Assembly: GCA_903896015.1 (NCBI GenBank)
Contig: CAITWF010000108.1
Span: 1-64,000 of the forward strand
Reading direction: 5' to 3'
Length of the DNA: 64,000 bases
Origin: an uncultured Opitutia bacterium
Lineage (GTDB): Bacteria > Verrucomicrobiota > Verrucomicrobiia > Opitutales > Opitutaceae
Every line of letters starts with the position of its first letter. Within the stretch, counting starts at the first letter, position 1. The notes under the pieces were generated by a model. That model was not told the DNA's origin and searched no databases. It worked only from the letters and a program-made list of their open reading frames with translations. The translations under genes and the position numbers were made by a program. Shown in pieces: positions 34,649-43,557 of the stretch.

Positions 34649-35452
34649 TCACGCCAGCTCGTAGAAAGGCGTGCCTTCGCCGGGTGCGACTACGGCGAAT
34701 TCGCACGCGGCGAGCGCGGCGCGCACGCTCGAGAGCGCGAGTTCGACCGCGGCGGGTGAATTGCAGTCGCGCGAGAGGTGGGTGAGATAAACGCGTCGCC
34801 AGCGCGGACTCGCGACTGCCGCGAGAAGTTCGCGCGCGGCTTCATTCGAGAGATGACCGTGTCGGCCGCTAATGCGTTGCTTCGTCGACCACGGGCGCTT
34901 CGTGTCGGCCTTTAGCAACTCAGGGCAGTGATTCGCCTCGACGACGACGACCTCGCACTCGCGGATGCGCTCGCGGACGTTTTGCGGCGCGTGCCCGAGG
35001 TCGGTGAGAAACGCCAGCGAACGTCGCGGCGCGAACAGGTCGCCGTCGTGGCCGGTCGTGAAACGAAAGCCCACCGGCTCCTGCGCGTCATGCGGCACCG
35101 GGAAACTCTCGATCTCGAGATCGCGGAAACGGAAGCGCGATCCCGTCTCGAAGACCTGCCAGTCGGCGCGCCACGTCAGACCGCTCTGCACGGCGCGACG
35201 CGTGGGCTCGTTGGCGAACACGCGGATGTGCGGAAATTTTTTGAGCCCGTCGATCCCGGAGGCGTGATCTCCGTGCTCGTGCGTGAGAAAGATCGCGTCG
35301 ATTTTCTCGAAGGATTCGCCCGTAGCGGCGAGCAGCGCGCCGAGTTTCTTCGCGGAAAAGCCGGCGTCGATCAGCACGCGCGCGCTTTCGGTCACGAGCA
35401 ACGCCGCGTTGCCCGAGCTGCCGCTGCCGAGAATGCTAAACCTCATCGCCAT
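34649..35452 (-). CDS. MBL-fold metallo-hydrolase (YycJ/WalJ-like)
   Basis: A 267-residue cytoplasmic metallo-beta-lactamase-fold protein. The N-terminus MRFSILGSGSSGNAALL is that of the YycJ group. The metal-binding motif THEHGDHASG follows, and later ligands occur in 'VVVEANHC' and near HLSRDCN. Group members are exonuclease-like and have been linked to cell-wall control or DNA repair in Firmicutes; the role here is unproven. It follows the large kinase-nucleotidyltransferase gene by 61 bp, with a GC-rich hairpin between them. Confidence 0.88.
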   Translation of the reverse strand: MAMRFSILGSGSSGNAALLVTESARVLIDAGFSAKKLGALLAATGESFEKIDAIFLTHEHGDHASGIDGLKKFPHIRVFANEPTRRAVQSGLTWRADWQVFETGSRFRFRDLEIESFPVPHDAQEPVGFRFTTGHDGDLFAPRRSLAFLTDLGHAPQNVRERIRECEVVVVEANHCPELLKADTKRPWSTKQRISGRHGHLSNEAARELLAAVASPRWRRVYLTHLSRDCNSPAAVELALSSVRAALAACEFAVVAPGEGTPFYELA

Positions 35453-35466
35453 GCGCCGTGCGTTGT

Positions 35467-35485
35467 CCGCCGCGTAGCGCGGCGG
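35467..35485. other. GC-rich hairpin between two leftward genes
   Basis: A perfect 8-bp inverted repeat (CCGCCGCG / CGCGGCGG) with a 3-nt loop lies between the stop of the large fusion gene and the start of the MBL gene. There is no T-tract. It could be an attenuator, an mRNA-stabilising hairpin or chance in GC-rich DNA. Confidence 0.35.
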
Positions 35486-35513
35486 CGCAAGCGGTTTCTC
35501 GCGAGGCGGCGGC

Positions 35514-38834
<3,321 letters not shown>

Positions 38835-38836
38835 GG

Positions 38837-39679
38837 TCAGTCAGCGCGGACGGCAAGCAGTTCGATCAGTTGCGTGAGCACACGGTCGCGATCGCGGCCA
38901 GAGAGCGAGAGCGCGAGTTGGGCGAGCAGCAGGCCGTAGGGCGCGCCGATGTCGTAGCGACGACCGGCGATCGAAAATGCGAGGTAACGCTGCCGCGCGG
39001 CGAGCGCGTGCAGCGCCGGGGAAAGGCCCAGCGGCCGGTCGGGCGCCGTGGCGCGTTGCTCGTCGAGCAACGTGAAAATTTCCGGCCCGAGCACGTGCAG
39101 GCCGAAGAAGCAGAGATAGAATCCAGCGCGCAGCCCCGGCACGATCAACTGTTGCTCGGCGACGGTGGGCGTCGGTTTTTCGAGCACGGTGTCGATTTGG
39201 TAGAGCGGACGATCGCCGCCGACGAGCCGGCCGCCGACCGCGCCATAGGAGGTGAGCAGACTCTCGCGGGTAGGCTGCACCGCGGAGACGGAGGCGTTTT
39301 CCGCAGCGGCGATCTCGATCAGCTGGCGCGCGCAGCTTGTCACGCCTTGCGCGACGTGCAGGTGATCACCCACGAGGTGGAGGAAGGGTTGGTCGCCGAT
39401 AAATTCGCGGGCGCACAGCACCGCGTGGCCGTAGCCGTGGGGCGCCTTTTGCACGACGAAGCGCACGCGCGGGCGCAACGCGCCGCAGGCCTCGGCGTAG
39501 GCGGTTTCATCGCCGGGACACACCACGACGCAAAATTCCTCGATGCCCGCGCCCGCAGCTTCCTCGAGAATGATCTGGAGCGCGGATTTGGTCTCACCGT
39601 GTTGATCGATGAGCGTCTGGAGCGGCAGCGTGCGCTGGCGGGGATTGGCGGCGGTGACAAGCGCTTGGCGGATGGGCAT
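38837..39679 (-). CDS. GalU-like sugar-phosphate nucleotidyltransferase with altered glycine loop
   Basis: A 280-residue protein with the order of a sugar-1-phosphate nucleotidyltransferase: an N-terminal nucleotide loop, 'GYGHAVLCAREFIGDQPFLH', then LVGDHLH for the metal-Asp region, and VLEKP further on. The usual AAGxGTRxxPxTK loop is replaced by TAANPRQRTLPLQTL, so activity may differ or depend on a partner. The start at ATG 39679 gives the family N-terminus. The stop is 2 bp before the kinase-nucleotidyltransferase fusion, which strongly suggests a joint pathway or complex. Confidence 0.8.
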   Translation of the reverse strand: MPIRQALVTAANPRQRTLPLQTLIDQHGETKSALQIILEEAAGAGIEEFCVVVCPGDETAYAEACGALRPRVRFVVQKAPHGYGHAVLCAREFIGDQPFLHLVGDHLHVAQGVTSCARQLIEIAAAENASVSAVQPTRESLLTSYGAVGGRLVGGDRPLYQIDTVLEKPTPTVAEQQLIVPGLRAGFYLCFFGLHVLGPEIFTLLDEQRATAPDRPLGLSPALHALAARQRYLAFSIAGRRYDIGAPYGLLLAQLALSLSGRDRDRVLTQLIELLAVRAD

Positions 39680-39786
39680 GACGGGGCAGGTGGAGCGCCG
39701 ATTCAGCGTAGGTGCAGATGGCGCCGCAATCTGAATCACCGCGCTGGCGTTGACCGAGTGAACTTTTGTGCTACTTCTGACCCTCC

Positions 39787-40269
39787 ATGCCTGCGAAAAC
39801 CGCCCGCCGCCCAACCGCTCCACGACGCCCGCTCGTGCTGTCGGGCACCGTGTTCATCACACGGCAGGTGCATTTCAACTCCGCGCACCGGCTCTTTAAT
39901 CCGACGAAAAGCCTCGCCTGGAACCAGAAACAATACGGCCTTTGCACCAACCCGCATTGGCATGGCCACAACTATGTCCTCGAAGTCACGGTGAAGGGCC
40001 AGCCGGCGACCGACACGGGTTACGTGATCGATCTCGGCGAGTTGAAGCGTATCCTCCAGCGCGCCGTCGTTGATCCCTGCGATCACAAGAATCTGAACAC
40101 CGACGTGCCGTTTCTTCGCGGGCTGATCCCGTCGACGGAAAATCTCGTCATCGCGTTCTGGAGCGAAATCGCGCCGCACTTGCCGCCGGCTGCGCAACTC
40201 CACCGCGTGCGTCTCTTTGAGACGCCGCGCAACTTCGCCGACTACTACGGCACCGGCGGCCCACAATAA
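39787..40269 (+). CDS. 6-pyruvoyl-tetrahydropterin synthase-type enzyme
   Basis: A 160-residue protein of the PTPS/QueD family, which converts dihydroneopterin triphosphate. Zinc ligands are His34 (NSAHRL), His59 and His61 (HGHNY); the catalytic Cys is Cys53. The spacing Cys-x5-HGHNY (CTNPHWHGHNY) matches animal-type PTPS (CNNPNGHGHNY) rather than QueD, which has Cys-x3-HGH. 'DHKNLNTDVPF' and STENL are also PTPS-like. The product is therefore more likely 6-pyruvoyl-tetrahydropterin than the queuosine intermediate. FolE2 and a short-chain reductase follow. Confidence 0.9.
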   Translation: MPAKTARRPTAPRRPLVLSGTVFITRQVHFNSAHRLFNPTKSLAWNQKQYGLCTNPHWHGHNYVLEVTVKGQPATDTGYVIDLGELKRILQRAVVDPCDHKNLNTDVPFLRGLIPSTENLVIAFWSEIAPHLPPAAQLHRVRLFETPRNFADYYGTGGPQ

Positions 40270-40350
40270 ATTTTCTCTTACCAGCCGAACTTGGCCCGGG
40301 CGTTGTTATCGTCCCCAACCGCCCTGCCGATTGCTCCGACTAAAAACGAC

Positions 40351-41325
40351 ATGAAGAAAAAACCCATGTTCCTGCACGAGACCGCCGGCGGAGTGCCGCC
40401 GCTCGTGAACCGCCGCTTCGACGCGAAGTTTAAGTCCGACGCCGCCTACCGCGCTTCACTCCCTGACATGATGGAGGCCGTCAACGCTGCCGAGGGCGCG
40501 CGCGTGCCGATTCAGCAGGTGGGCTGCGCAAATTTCCGTCTGCCGCTCCAGTATCGCACCGCGGCGGGAAAAATCGTGACGCTGGAGACGAGCGTAACCG
40601 GCACGGTGTCGCTCCAAGCCGGCCTCAAAGGCATCAACATGGGCCGTATCATGCGCGCCTTCTACGAGCACGAGGACGAGGTCTTCACCTTCGACTTGCT
40701 CCGCCGTCTGCTGAAAAAATACCAGCGTAAGATCGACTCGTTTCACGCGCGCATCCGCCTCTCGTTTTCTTATCCGATGTTGCAGCCCAGCCTGCGGAGT
40801 GGGCTCGCGGGCTGGCAGTACTACCGCGTGGCGTTCGAGGCGACGATGGATGCCGCGGGAAAATTTCGCCGGATGATCGATTTCGATTTCGTTTATTCGT
40901 CAACGTGTCCGTGCAGTGCTGAACTGGCGGAGCACGCGCGACAGACGCGTGGCGTTTACGCGACGCCGCACGCGCAGCGTTCGAAAGCCCGCGTGCGTGT
41001 CGAACTCTCACCCGGCCGAAACCTCGCGATCGAGGATCTCCAACGACACTGCGCCAACGCGCTCAAAACGGAGACGCAGGTGATGGTGAAGCGCGAGGAC
41101 GAGCAGGCGTTTGCCGAGTTGAACGGCGCCAACATCAAGTTCGTCGAAGACGCCGCGCGCCTGCTCTATCGCGAGCTGGCGGGCGACAAACGCATCGCCG
41201 ACTTTCAGGTCGCGTGCTCGCACCTCGAATCGCTCCACTCGCACGACGCCGTGAGTGTGATCTGCAAGGGTGTGAAAAGCGGGTTCAACGCTGACTTTAT
41301 GGATTTTGGATCGCTGGTCTGCTGA
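40351..41325 (+). CDS. folE2: GTP cyclohydrolase FolE2 (type IB)
   Basis: A 324-residue enzyme making 7,8-dihydroneopterin triphosphate from GTP, the first step of folate, queuosine and biopterin synthesis. The start at ATG 40351 gives [13 protein letters not shown]. FolE2 features are [15 protein letters not shown], '[13 protein letters not shown]' with the active-site Cys, '[17 protein letters not shown]' and the late '[15 protein letters not shown]' with conserved His. FolE2 can use metals other than zinc. It lies 81 bp after the PTPS-type gene and 2 bp before the reductase gene, so its product would feed both enzymes. Confidence 0.93.
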
Positions 41326-41327
41326 AA

Positions 41328-42044
41328 ATGGCCGCGAAACCTCCCATCGTCCTCATCACTGGCGCATCGCAAGGCATCGGTGCTGCGATCGCGAAAGTCT
41401 TTGCGAAGGAAGTTCGCGGCGTGAGGCTTGCTCTCGTGGCACGCAATGCGACGAATCTCGGCGCGGTGGCGCGCGCCTGCGCCAAACTTGGTGCGGTGGT
41501 CGAGATCTTCGCGTGCGATGTGGTCACCGAGGAGGCTGTGATGGCGATGGCGAAGGCGGTCGCGAAAAAATTCGGCACCATCGATGTGTTAGTCAACAAC
41601 GCGGGCGTGTTCGCCAGCGCGCCTTTCGCCCAGACGAAAGTGACCGAGTTCGATCGGATCGTGGCGGCAAATTTGCGGAGCGCGTTTCTGGTATCGCGGG
41701 CGTTTCTCCCGGCGATGTTGAAACGCAAAAGCGGCGACGTGTTTTTTATGAGCTCGATCGCGGGGCTCGGCGCATATCCGGGTGGCGCGGCGTATTGCGC
41801 GGCGAAGTTTGGCGTGACGGGGCTCGCGAAGGTTTTGCGTGCGGAGACAAAAAAATCCGGTGTGCGCGTGTGCTGCGTGCATCCCGGCGCGACTTGGTCG
41901 CCGTCGTGGAGCGGCAGCGGCGTGCAGCCGGAGCGCATCATGCCCGCCGAGGATGTCGCGCGCGCGTTCCTAGACGTTTACCGCCTCGGCCGCCGCACCG
42001 TCATCGAAGAGATCGTGCTGCGGCCGCAACTCGGCGACCTTTAA
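41328..42044 (+). CDS. short-chain dehydrogenase, possible sepiapterin-reductase-like step
   Basis: A 238-residue classical SDR: NADP-binding TGASQGIG at 11-18, NNAG at 90-93, catalytic Ser142/143, Tyr156 and Lys160 (YCAAK). 'CCVHPGATWSP' is the usual nucleotide-binding turn after the active site. The sequence alone does not fix the substrate. The start is 2 bp after the FolE2 stop, in an order that would complete tetrahydrobiopterin synthesis (FolE2, PTPS, SDR), so a sepiapterin-reductase-type role is the best inference. It ends 14 bp before a convergent oxidase gene. Confidence 0.85.
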   Translation: MAAKPPIVLITGASQGIGAAIAKVFAKEVRGVRLALVARNATNLGAVARACAKLGAVVEIFACDVVTEEAVMAMAKAVAKKFGTIDVLVNNAGVFASAPFAQTKVTEFDRIVAANLRSAFLVSRAFLPAMLKRKSGDVFFMSSIAGLGAYPGGAAYCAAKFGVTGLAKVLRAETKKSGVRVCCVHPGATWSPSWSGSGVQPERIMPAEDVARAFLDVYRLGRRTVIEEIVLRPQLGDL

Positions 42045-42058
42045 GTTCACCCGTTTGC

Positions 42059-43144
42059 TCAGCGCCAGAGCACTGACGAGTCGATCGAAGCGATCGTGGG
42101 GCGGCCGCAGTGGGCCATCGTCATTTCGAGTTCGCGCCGCAGCATGCCGACGATGCGCGCGACGCCGCGCGCGCCGTCGACTGCCAGCCCGTAGACGTAG
42201 GGCCGGCCGATGAGCACGGCGTTGGCCCCGAGCGCGAGTGCCTTTAGAACATCGGTGCCATGGCGAATTCCGCCGTCGACGAGCACGGGAATTTTCCCCG
42301 CCACGTTTGCGACGACCCGGGGCAGCGCCTCGATCGTGGCGGGGGCCGTGTCGAGATTGCGGCCGCCGTGGTTCGACACGATAATGCCCGCGGCTCCCGA
42401 TTGCGCGGCCAGTGCGGCGTCGAGCGGGTTGATGATTCCCTTGAGCAAGACCGGCAGCTTGGTGATTGAGCGCAGCCACTCGACATCCTTCCACGTGAGC
42501 GAGGCGTCGAGCGTGGCGCTGAAGATACTGCCCTCGGTCGCCCGGTGACTCCCGGTTGCGCCCACGCGGCCGCGGAAGTTGGCGCGTTCGACGCCGGCGG
42601 GCAGGTTGAAGTTCGCCCGCAACTCACGGTAACGCGGTCCGAGCACGGGCGTGTCGACCGTGAGCACGAGGGCCTCGTAGCCGGCCGCCTCGGCGCGACT
42701 CACGAGTTCGCGCGTGAAACCGCGGTCGGTTTGCACATAGAGCTGAAACCACAGCGGCGATGCCGTCGCGGCGGCGACTTCCTCGATCGAGACGGTGGCG
42801 ACGGTGCTGAGGACGAATGTCGCCTGCGCTTCGGCCGCGCCGCGCGCCGTCGCGAGTTCGCCCTCGGGATGCGCGAGTTTGTGATAGCCGGTGGGCGCGA
42901 GCAGGATGGGATGCGCTAATTCGCGTCCGAGCAAAGTCACACGCGTGTCGAGTTTCGACACATCGACGAGCGCCCGCGGCGCGAGACGCAGCCGGGTGAA
43001 CGCCATCTGGTTTTCGCGCGCCGTGATTTCATCCGCCGCGGCAGCCGCGACGTATTCCCAAGCGACCGTGGACATCACCCGCTGCGCGGCGCGCTCGTAG
43101 TCGGCAAGGTCGAACAGCTGGGCGGGGAGAGCGGATGTGGACAT
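42059..43144 (-). CDS. FMN-dependent alpha-hydroxy-acid oxidase/dehydrogenase
   Basis: A 361-residue enzyme of the glycolate oxidase/lactate oxidase family. The catalytic His259 lies in SNHGGRNLD, with Arg262 binding the substrate carboxylate. Lys235 (LLKGI) and Tyr136 (FQLYVQTD) bind FMN, and the phosphate site is GGIRHGTDVLKAL near 291-303. It oxidises an L-2-hydroxy acid such as lactate or glycolate to the keto acid. There is no membrane segment of the LldD type, so it is probably soluble. It lies 17 bp downstream of the VapC-like toxin gene on the same strand. Confidence 0.9.
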   Translation of the reverse strand: MSTSALPAQLFDLADYERAAQRVMSTVAWEYVAAAAADEITARENQMAFTRLRLAPRALVDVSKLDTRVTLLGRELAHPILLAPTGYHKLAHPEGELATARGAAEAQATFVLSTVATVSIEEVAAATASPLWFQLYVQTDRGFTRELVSRAEAAGYEALVLTVDTPVLGPRYRELRANFNLPAGVERANFRGRVGATGSHRATEGSIFSATLDASLTWKDVEWLRSITKLPVLLKGIINPLDAALAAQSGAAGIIVSNHGGRNLDTAPATIEALPRVVANVAGKIPVLVDGGIRHGTDVLKALALGANAVLIGRPYVYGLAVDGARGVARIVGMLRRELEMTMAHCGRPTIASIDSSVLWR

Positions 43145-43161
43145 GGGAGGAAATCAGGATG

Positions 43162-43557
43162 TCACCACACGACCATCAACCCGCGCACACCGGAGAGGTC
43201 GTGCATTTTTTCATCGATGGTGAGCAGCGGCAGCTTGTGCTCTGCGGCGGTCGCCACGATGTGCCGGTCGCAGGGATCGCGGTGTTTCCATTCAAGCGAA
43301 GCGGCGCGCAGCGCGATGGCAGGCGTCACGGGGAGCACGATGAAATTGGCAATGGCCGCTTCCAGCCAGGTGTCCGAAGCCAGATTGACGCGAATTTTCC
43401 CTGAAACCAAATGCTGGGCCAGTTCGCAGACCGTGGTGTCGGCAATGGCCAGATCGCCCGGCACGGATTCGCTCAGGATGTCACGCACCCGCGGCGAGAG
43501 GCGATGGTCGGCGTTGCGCGCCCAATCCACGAGATGAGTATCGAGCAGATACTTCAC
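43162..43557 (-). CDS. VapC-like PIN-domain toxin
   Basis: A 131-residue PIN-domain endoribonuclease, likely the toxin of a VapBC pair. The acidic metal-binding residues are visible: LLDTHLVDW (Asp6), TTVCELAQ (Glu), then KHRDPCDRHIVATA and LLTIDEKM (Asp). The reading starts at GTG 43557, which overlaps the stop of the upstream antitoxin frame in a GTGA. That confirms both frames and implies coupled translation. The downstream oxidase gene is only 17 bp away and may be read through. Confidence 0.9.
   Translation of the reverse strand: MKYLLDTHLVDWARNADHRLSPRVRDILSESVPGDLAIADTTVCELAQHLVSGKIRVNLASDTWLEAAIANFIVLPVTPAIALRAASLEWKHRDPCDRHIVATAAEHKLPLLTIDEKMHDLSGVRGLMVVW

Follow-up and report, generated by a model that had tools for sequence, protein, structure and literature searches.

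A cluster of three putative pterin genes

The subject of this work is a group of three genes in a 64,000-nucleotide stretch of DNA (hereafter the window; positions 1 to 64,000 of the forward strand of contig CAITWF010000108.1, assembly GCA_903896015.1) from an uncultured Opitutia bacterium of the family Opitutaceae. The genes follow one another on the plus strand. The first, at 39787-40269, encodes a 160-amino-acid protein of the 6-pyruvoyl-tetrahydropterin synthase (PTPS) family, of PTPS-II type (PF01242, E 1.6e-34). The second, at 40351-41325 when counted from its ATG codon, encodes the 324-amino-acid GTP cyclohydrolase IB, FolE2 (PF02649, E 5.4e-69), and the third, at 41328-42044, a 238-amino-acid short-chain dehydrogenase/reductase (SDR; PF00106, E 2.5e-52) whose nearest solved relative is the sepiapterin reductase of Chlorobium tepidum. 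PTPS and FolE2 are separated by 81 bp, and only 2 bp lie between the FolE2 stop codon and the SDR start; an alternative TTG start at 40291 would give FolE2 a longer open reading frame. The open reading frames and their coordinates confirm what an earlier reading of this DNA, made from the sequence alone (the sequence-only reading), had described: three consecutive rightward genes, the last two 2 bp apart. We consider it likely that the products of this operon-like cluster synthesise a pterin of the tetrahydrobiopterin (BH4) type, with or without a role in queuosine synthesis.

Conservation of the cluster in related genomes

We searched 57 genomes, namely the window's own (G000; 97.9% complete, in 123 contigs) and 56 relatives, and counted co-occurrence in the 37 of them that belong to the family. 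PTPS of the window type, here called class A, was found in 28 of these 37; the remaining 20 genomes, which represent further families of the order, had none. FolE2 adjoined PTPS in all 30 family loci, the window counted; in one of them, the second class A copy of G028, FolE2 was broken. An SDR orthologue lay within 25 of the 30 PTPS-FolE2 stretches, and genome-wide an orthologue at E up to 1e-50 was present in 26 of the 28 family genomes with class A PTPS and in 0 of the 9 without it (Fisher p 4e-7, uncorrected for kinship). The FolE2 loci that we fetched from family genomes without class A contained no SDR orthologue in any case (7/7), indicating that SDR tracks PTPS and not FolE2.

A similar picture was obtained for named loci, taken as the 80 best of 587 by similarity and not at random, mostly metagenome-assembled genomes named Opitutaceae, Opitutae or Verrucomicrobia. 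PTPS identity to these named relatives was 61-82%. FolE2 came after PTPS in 78 of the 80 loci, and PTPS, FolE2 and SDR stood on one strand in 61 (in one, with SDR 3 kb away). PTPS-FolE2 without a downstream same-strand SDR of at least 50% identity accounted for 11 loci, six ended too soon after FolE2, one ended before FolE2 and one had SDR without FolE2. Because the same order recurs in relatives, the arrangement is more than chance.

Some variants of the locus were also observed. In G024 a 124-amino-acid open reading frame (L078 10074-10448) lies between FolE2 and SDR; it was considered as a pterin enzyme and ruled out, being a GxxExxY / PDDEXK_3 protein. A gene of the same kind, 83% identical to it, directly follows FolE2 in G002, a genome without SDR (L076 8642-9115). 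Outside the family, a weaker relative of SDR (273 bits; G055:C1:1265648-1266355) lies about 4 kb from FolE2 in one genome without class A PTPS, G055, which also has another COG0720 gene, whose motif resembles ExxHGH (G055:C1:3582883-3583326).

Comparison of the PTPS protein with animal PTPS and QueD

The PTPS protein contains the stretch C53-TNPHW-HGHNY. This C-x5-HGHNY spacing had been pointed out in the sequence-only reading, and it agrees with the signature CxxxxxHGH that the accessible part of PMC5041015 gives for PTPS-II, next to CxxxHGH for QueD (PTPS-I) and ExxHGH for PTPS-III. The QueD signature was seen neither in the window PTPS nor in its aligned orthologues (n=20), and the PTPS-III motif was likewise absent from the window protein, which has P at the E position. 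C53, H34, H59, G60, H61, D99, H100 and E145 were invariant in the 20 aligned orthologues; all of these except G60 correspond to residues that we take to bind the metal or act in catalysis in rat PTPS.

Comparison with solved structures pointed in the same direction. When the single sequence was searched, the best matches were 1b66, which we take to be the PTPS of rat (E 1e-30), and human PTPS (3e-30), with E. coli QueD at about 1e-6. A profile of 20 sequences scored 145 bits to 1b66 compared to 40 bits to E. coli QueD, and a fold search with the AlphaFold model of PTPS (mean pLDDT 84) ranked the human and Caenorhabditis elegans enzymes before QueD.

The SDR protein and the predicted pathway

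Among solved structures, the sepiapterin reductase of C. tepidum (2bd0) was the best relative of SDR in a single-sequence search (E 8e-40, 140 bits). It was also first in a profile search, at 197 bits with the next at 156, and ranked first in a fold search with the SDR model (pLDDT 90; TM 0.90, 34% identity); FabG structures ranked below it by both profile and fold. None of the best 25 of 224 NCBIfam models reached its cut-off, and the best ketoacyl-ACP reductase model scored 168.1 bits against a cut-off of 286. Thus SDR did not group with the fatty-acid or sugar reductases, an outcome that had been named beforehand as one that would speak against BH4 synthesis. The Ser143, Tyr156 and Lys160 triad and the T11-G18 motif TGxxxGxG were invariant in 20 SDR orthologues, but they are unspecific for sepiapterin reductase, since most SDRs have them. 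A C-terminal stretch, VEEIVLRPxxGD, is common to the SDR orthologues and 2bd0. Trp196 and Phe99 are described as substrate-binding residues of the Chlorobium enzyme in the part of PMC7520308 available to us; Trp196 aligns with W194 of SDR, which was invariant in the 20 orthologues.

On these likenesses, FolE2 would open GTP to give 7,8-dihydroneopterin triphosphate. PTPS would remove the triphosphate and rearrange this compound to 6-pyruvoyl-tetrahydropterin, and SDR, acting as a Chlorobium-type sepiapterin reductase, would reduce the side-chain ketones of 6-pyruvoyl-tetrahydropterin to yield BH4. The product is plausibly the L-threo isomer, a guess from the Chlorobium relative. The reactions and the stereochemistry are predicted from the observed gene anatomy, homology, linkage and co-occurrence.

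Queuosine genes and a possible second role of PTPS

The absence of queC, queE and queF from the neighbourhood had been taken by the sequence-only reading as an argument against queuosine. We too found none of them among the genes scanned at 34649-43557 of the window, but the argument found no support as it was put, as all three lie elsewhere in the genome: queC is on contig C25, the gene that we name queE is directly downstream of it with a 4 bp overlap, and queF, tgt and queA are also present. A separate queD, which the same reading had proposed to look for, was not found; the window PTPS was the sole COG0720/PF01242 gene detected in G000. A genome with the remaining queuosine genes and no other QueD had been named as a finding that would undermine the BH4 proposal, and this is in part what G000 is. 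For the BH4-like cofactor itself, the PTPS-II signature, the sepiapterin-reductase-like SDR, the linkage and the co-occurrence speak in favour, and the missing separate QueD in the presence of other que genes speaks against.

The COG0720 genes of the family fell into four classes: class A (the window type), class B with C-x3-HGHN, class C with C-x3-HGHSR/H, and class D, a QueD that passes the QueD model (G025). Of the 43 queC loci examined, 10 contained class B. The 27 queC loci from class-A genomes were scanned with class A, B and C queries, and none had such a gene beside queC. All 34 family genomes with full-length QueC, a count that excludes a weak partial match in G003 (E 8e-5), had at least one COG0720 gene. 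In 11 of them class A was the only one; completeness is 90% or more in eight of the 11, one of which (G021) consists of a single contig. QueE stood beside QueC in 8 of the 11. Class C comprises a G001 gene (L046 5033-5758) and similar genes in 10 other genomes. It is probably QueD, because it is the only COG0720 type in the QueC-bearing genomes G015 and G017. The G001 gene lies next to genes that, judged by eye, resemble sufU/sufS and nuoC/nuoD.

Could PTPS simply be the QueD of this lineage, fed by FolE2 for queuosine and linked by chance to an SDR of unrelated function? The sole COG0720 gene in a genome with queC, queE, queF, tgt and queA, the 11 class-A-only genomes among the 34 with full-length QueC, and the lack of a class A, B or C gene adjoining queC in class-A genomes would all fit. 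Against this, the C-x3-HGH of QueD is absent from the protein, SDR follows PTPS and not FolE2, and SDR is retained along with PTPS in all 16 genomes where class A coexists with a separate QueD-type gene. The last observation seemingly gives PTPS a role beyond queuosine, and we regard a pure QueD function as unlikely.

The opposite possibility, a narrower form of the explanation that we favour, is that the cluster makes a BH4-type pterin only. The queuosine precursor (6-carboxy-tetrahydropterin or preQ0) would then be salvaged, or made by an enzyme not yet recognised or by a QueD whose gene the draft assembly missed. The PTPS-II signature with its sepiapterin-reductase-like partner, and the draft state of G000, are consistent with this, but a separate QueD is also absent from the eight class-A-only QueC genomes with a completeness of 90% or more, one of which (G021) is a single contig. 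We consider this restriction to one product somewhat unlikely.

Within BH4-type synthesis, a third arrangement is a real possibility, although we stop short of calling it probable: in genomes without a separate QueD, PTPS may also yield 6-carboxy-tetrahydropterin for QueE, QueC and QueF. PTPS would then act at a branch point, where 6-pyruvoyl-tetrahydropterin trapped by the sepiapterin reductase becomes BH4 and 6-carboxy-tetrahydropterin goes to queuosine. The two class-A genomes without SDR (G002 and G008) have no separate QueD, and the 16 genomes with one keep SDR, as if a double-duty PTPS were kept while either of its jobs remains. We therefore tentatively suggest that class A is a PTPS-I/II hybrid, and that lineages of the family have done without a separate QueD, through repeated loss or from the start, since class A covers the QueD step. 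A tree built from QueC and QueE required at least 8 changes between having and lacking a separate QueD (15 of the 27 inner branches were weak and the bootstrap was unsettled), and on it the label 'only class A PTPS' did not cluster beyond shuffles (8 changes compared to a mean of 9.1; 125 of 500 shuffles were as low). The possible double duty is read from distribution, mostly among draft genomes.

FolE2 and folate

FolE2 passed both the NCBIfam equivalog NF010200 (290.9 vs 215 bits) and the PF02649 cut-off (233.1 vs 25 bits). It was the only GTP cyclohydrolase I found in G000, where FolE (PF01227) was not detected. The use of FolE2 instead of FolE had been singled out from the sequence; the observation was correct but unremarkable, as FolE2 occurred in 49 of the 57 genomes searched and FolE in 3. 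The history of FolE2 appears to be separate from that of its neighbours. The window FolE2 was 67% identical to that of G001, a genome of the same genus, and 88% and 84% identical to those of G026 and G019, whereas PTPS and SDR were 84% identical to G001 and 71-77% to G026 and G019. A tree in which the FolE2 proteins of G000 and G001 were forced together was rejected (log-likelihood 196 lower, p-AU 0.00025). Apparently FolE2 was exchanged at its site between PTPS and SDR, or a pair of old copies sorted differently.

FolE2 is most often a folate enzyme. A folate cluster, in which FolE2 is joined by a PTPS-III-like bypass of FolB, would agree with this and with the absence of a detectable folB in G000. 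Indeed, the missing FolB first suggested such a role, which we rejected for G000 since folK was not found there either. ExxHGH is absent from the window PTPS, with P in place of E, and folB and folK are both missing in 15 of the 28 class-A family genomes; the folate explanation is largely refuted for G000 and highly improbable. As neither folB nor folK was found, the FolE2 product in G000 has no recognised folate outlet; the uses known to us that remain for it are queuosine and the branch to a BH4-type pterin. The joint absence of folB and folK suggests that many of these bacteria are folate auxotrophs, even though they retain FolE2.

Evidence against a BH4-type product

Several observations weigh against a BH4-type role. 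The first concerns the PTPS protein, which scored below both NCBIfam cut-offs (84.5 vs 125.5 bits, and 63.1 vs 89.25 bits for the QueD model TIGR03367); the TIGR03367 test is weak here, because two local genes beside queC fail it too (58.2 and 58.6 bits). In a PTPS tree of 44 rows the 20 class A rows joined three animal PTPS (support 95/94), but an alternative tree with class A beside class B QueD was not rejected (p-AU 0.20), and long branches were flagged. Because of this alternative the PTPS tree alone decides nothing, and the grouping with the animal enzymes is not firm. The comparison of PTPS with QueD, which the sequence-only reading had recommended, favoured the animal enzymes by profile and fold, and the tree left both placements standing. 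Moreover, the PTPS of Synechococcus closest to the rat enzyme was not a BH4 enzyme, according to the accessible part of PMC5041015.

For SDR, the lead of 2bd0 in the single-sequence search was small (140 vs 133 bits; next E 9e-38), and Phe99 of 2bd0 aligns with S97, which is not conserved, with the nearly invariant F95 two residues off. Two of the nine family genomes without SDR and class A were less than 82% complete, and for another entry among the nine, G006, the scoring covered only 50 of 66 SDR candidates. On the queuosine side, the name queE for the G000 gene depends on its position next to queC and on QueE models, which head its match list but all score under their cut-offs. In three of the 11 class-A-only genomes QueE was not seen beside QueC (the G002 contig ends; the stretches fetched from G008 and G021 did not include it), and the argument from a sole QueD candidate draws mostly on draft genomes.

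No aromatic amino acid hydroxylase, including the phenylalanine hydroxylase that had been suggested as a check, was found in G000, and only 3 of the 57 genomes have one, so that no BH4 user is known in G000. The three hydroxylase genes belong to family genomes (G016, G027 and G033; L035-L037), all with PTPS and SDR. BH4 is glycosylated in Chlorobium and cyanobacteria, as stated in the parts of PMC5683033 and PMC3546692 available to us, and the latter calls the function of these pteridine glycosides unknown.

SDR might instead act on another product and give a different reduced pterin, for example a lactoyl, monapterin-like or other pterin. The loss of Phe99 and the lack of a known BH4-using enzyme in G000, among those searched for, are compatible with this. 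However, the nearest solved relative of SDR is a sepiapterin reductase whose Trp is kept, and the Gly-rich motif is TGxxxGxG and not the TGxxxRxG of FolM/PTR1, and we judge a different pterin quite unlikely.

Surroundings of the cluster

In a Pfam/NCBIfam scan of the flanks, all genes were on the minus strand: upstream of the cluster one with an MBL fold and two that are nucleotidyltransferase-like, and downstream one for an FMN-dependent dehydrogenase and one with a PIN domain. The FMN-dependent (L-lactate dehydrogenase/oxidase-like) gene adjoins SDR (42059-43144, minus), and G018 and G024 have homologues of it close to their clusters. On the other side, the stretch 35514-39766 (minus) holds a gene for a 1106-amino-acid protein with weak similarity to fucokinase/fucose-1-phosphate guanylyltransferase and UDPGP, beside a GalU-like gene whose open reading frame in its longest form overlaps the PTPS start.

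Rfam gave no match in 38500-43500 at E up to 0.1. Around the cluster there were no promoter-like sites (0.5 in shuffles) and four terminator-like sites, compared to 3.6 in shuffles. Viral contigs scanned with PTPS, a search sensitive to close relatives only, contained no relative. The plasmid matches to PTPS (70 records, all below 60% identity, mainly rhizobial and several labelled queD) were not informative.

Comparison with known systems

Among the open-licence papers listed in our literature searches, judged by title and the start of the abstract, none dealt with a PTPS-FolE2-SDR cluster in Verrucomicrobiota or with a PTPS serving both BH4 and queuosine. The kind of pathway is known; what is new is the gene arrangement and the predicted sharing with queuosine. 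BH4 use in bacteria is poorly known, and the conserved three-gene cluster in this family of Verrucomicrobiota, in which about half of the PTPS-bearing genomes (15/28) lack folB and folK, offers a clean test system. Should PTPS also feed queuosine, a single COG0720 enzyme would supply two pathways from the same substrate, and the motif rule by which C-x5-HGH is read as BH4 and C-x3-HGH as queuosine would have to be corrected.

The predicted pathway resembles BH4 synthesis in C. tepidum, in that SDR is closest to the sepiapterin reductase of that organism, with Trp196 kept, and the window PTPS has CxxxxxHGH; Chlorobium presumably has a PTPS-II as well. It would differ from Chlorobium in the tight PTPS-FolE2-SDR arrangement with FolE2 as the sole GTP cyclohydrolase I found; the Chlorobium protein compared here was the reductase. 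With animal BH4 synthesis (GCH1, PTPS and SPR) the cluster shares C-x5-HGHNY, its best solved PTPS matches are animal, and class A clades with animal PTPS in the best tree, though not firmly. Unlike in animals, FolE2 replaces the GCH1/FolE family, and no animal sepiapterin reductase was among the best 60 SDR chains. The window PTPS is like QueD (PTPS-I) in family, fold and upstream substrate, and in being the sole COG0720 gene found in a genome with other que genes, and differs from it in having C-x5 rather than C-x3 before HGH, in scoring below the QueD model cut-off and in lying away from queC and queE. Finally, as in the PTPS-I/III hybrids that serve folate and queuosine in the accessible part of PMC5041015, one COG0720 protein is predicted to feed two pathways; here, in contrast to those hybrids, the predicted pair would be BH4 and queuosine, the motif is that of PTPS-II, and folB and folK were not found.

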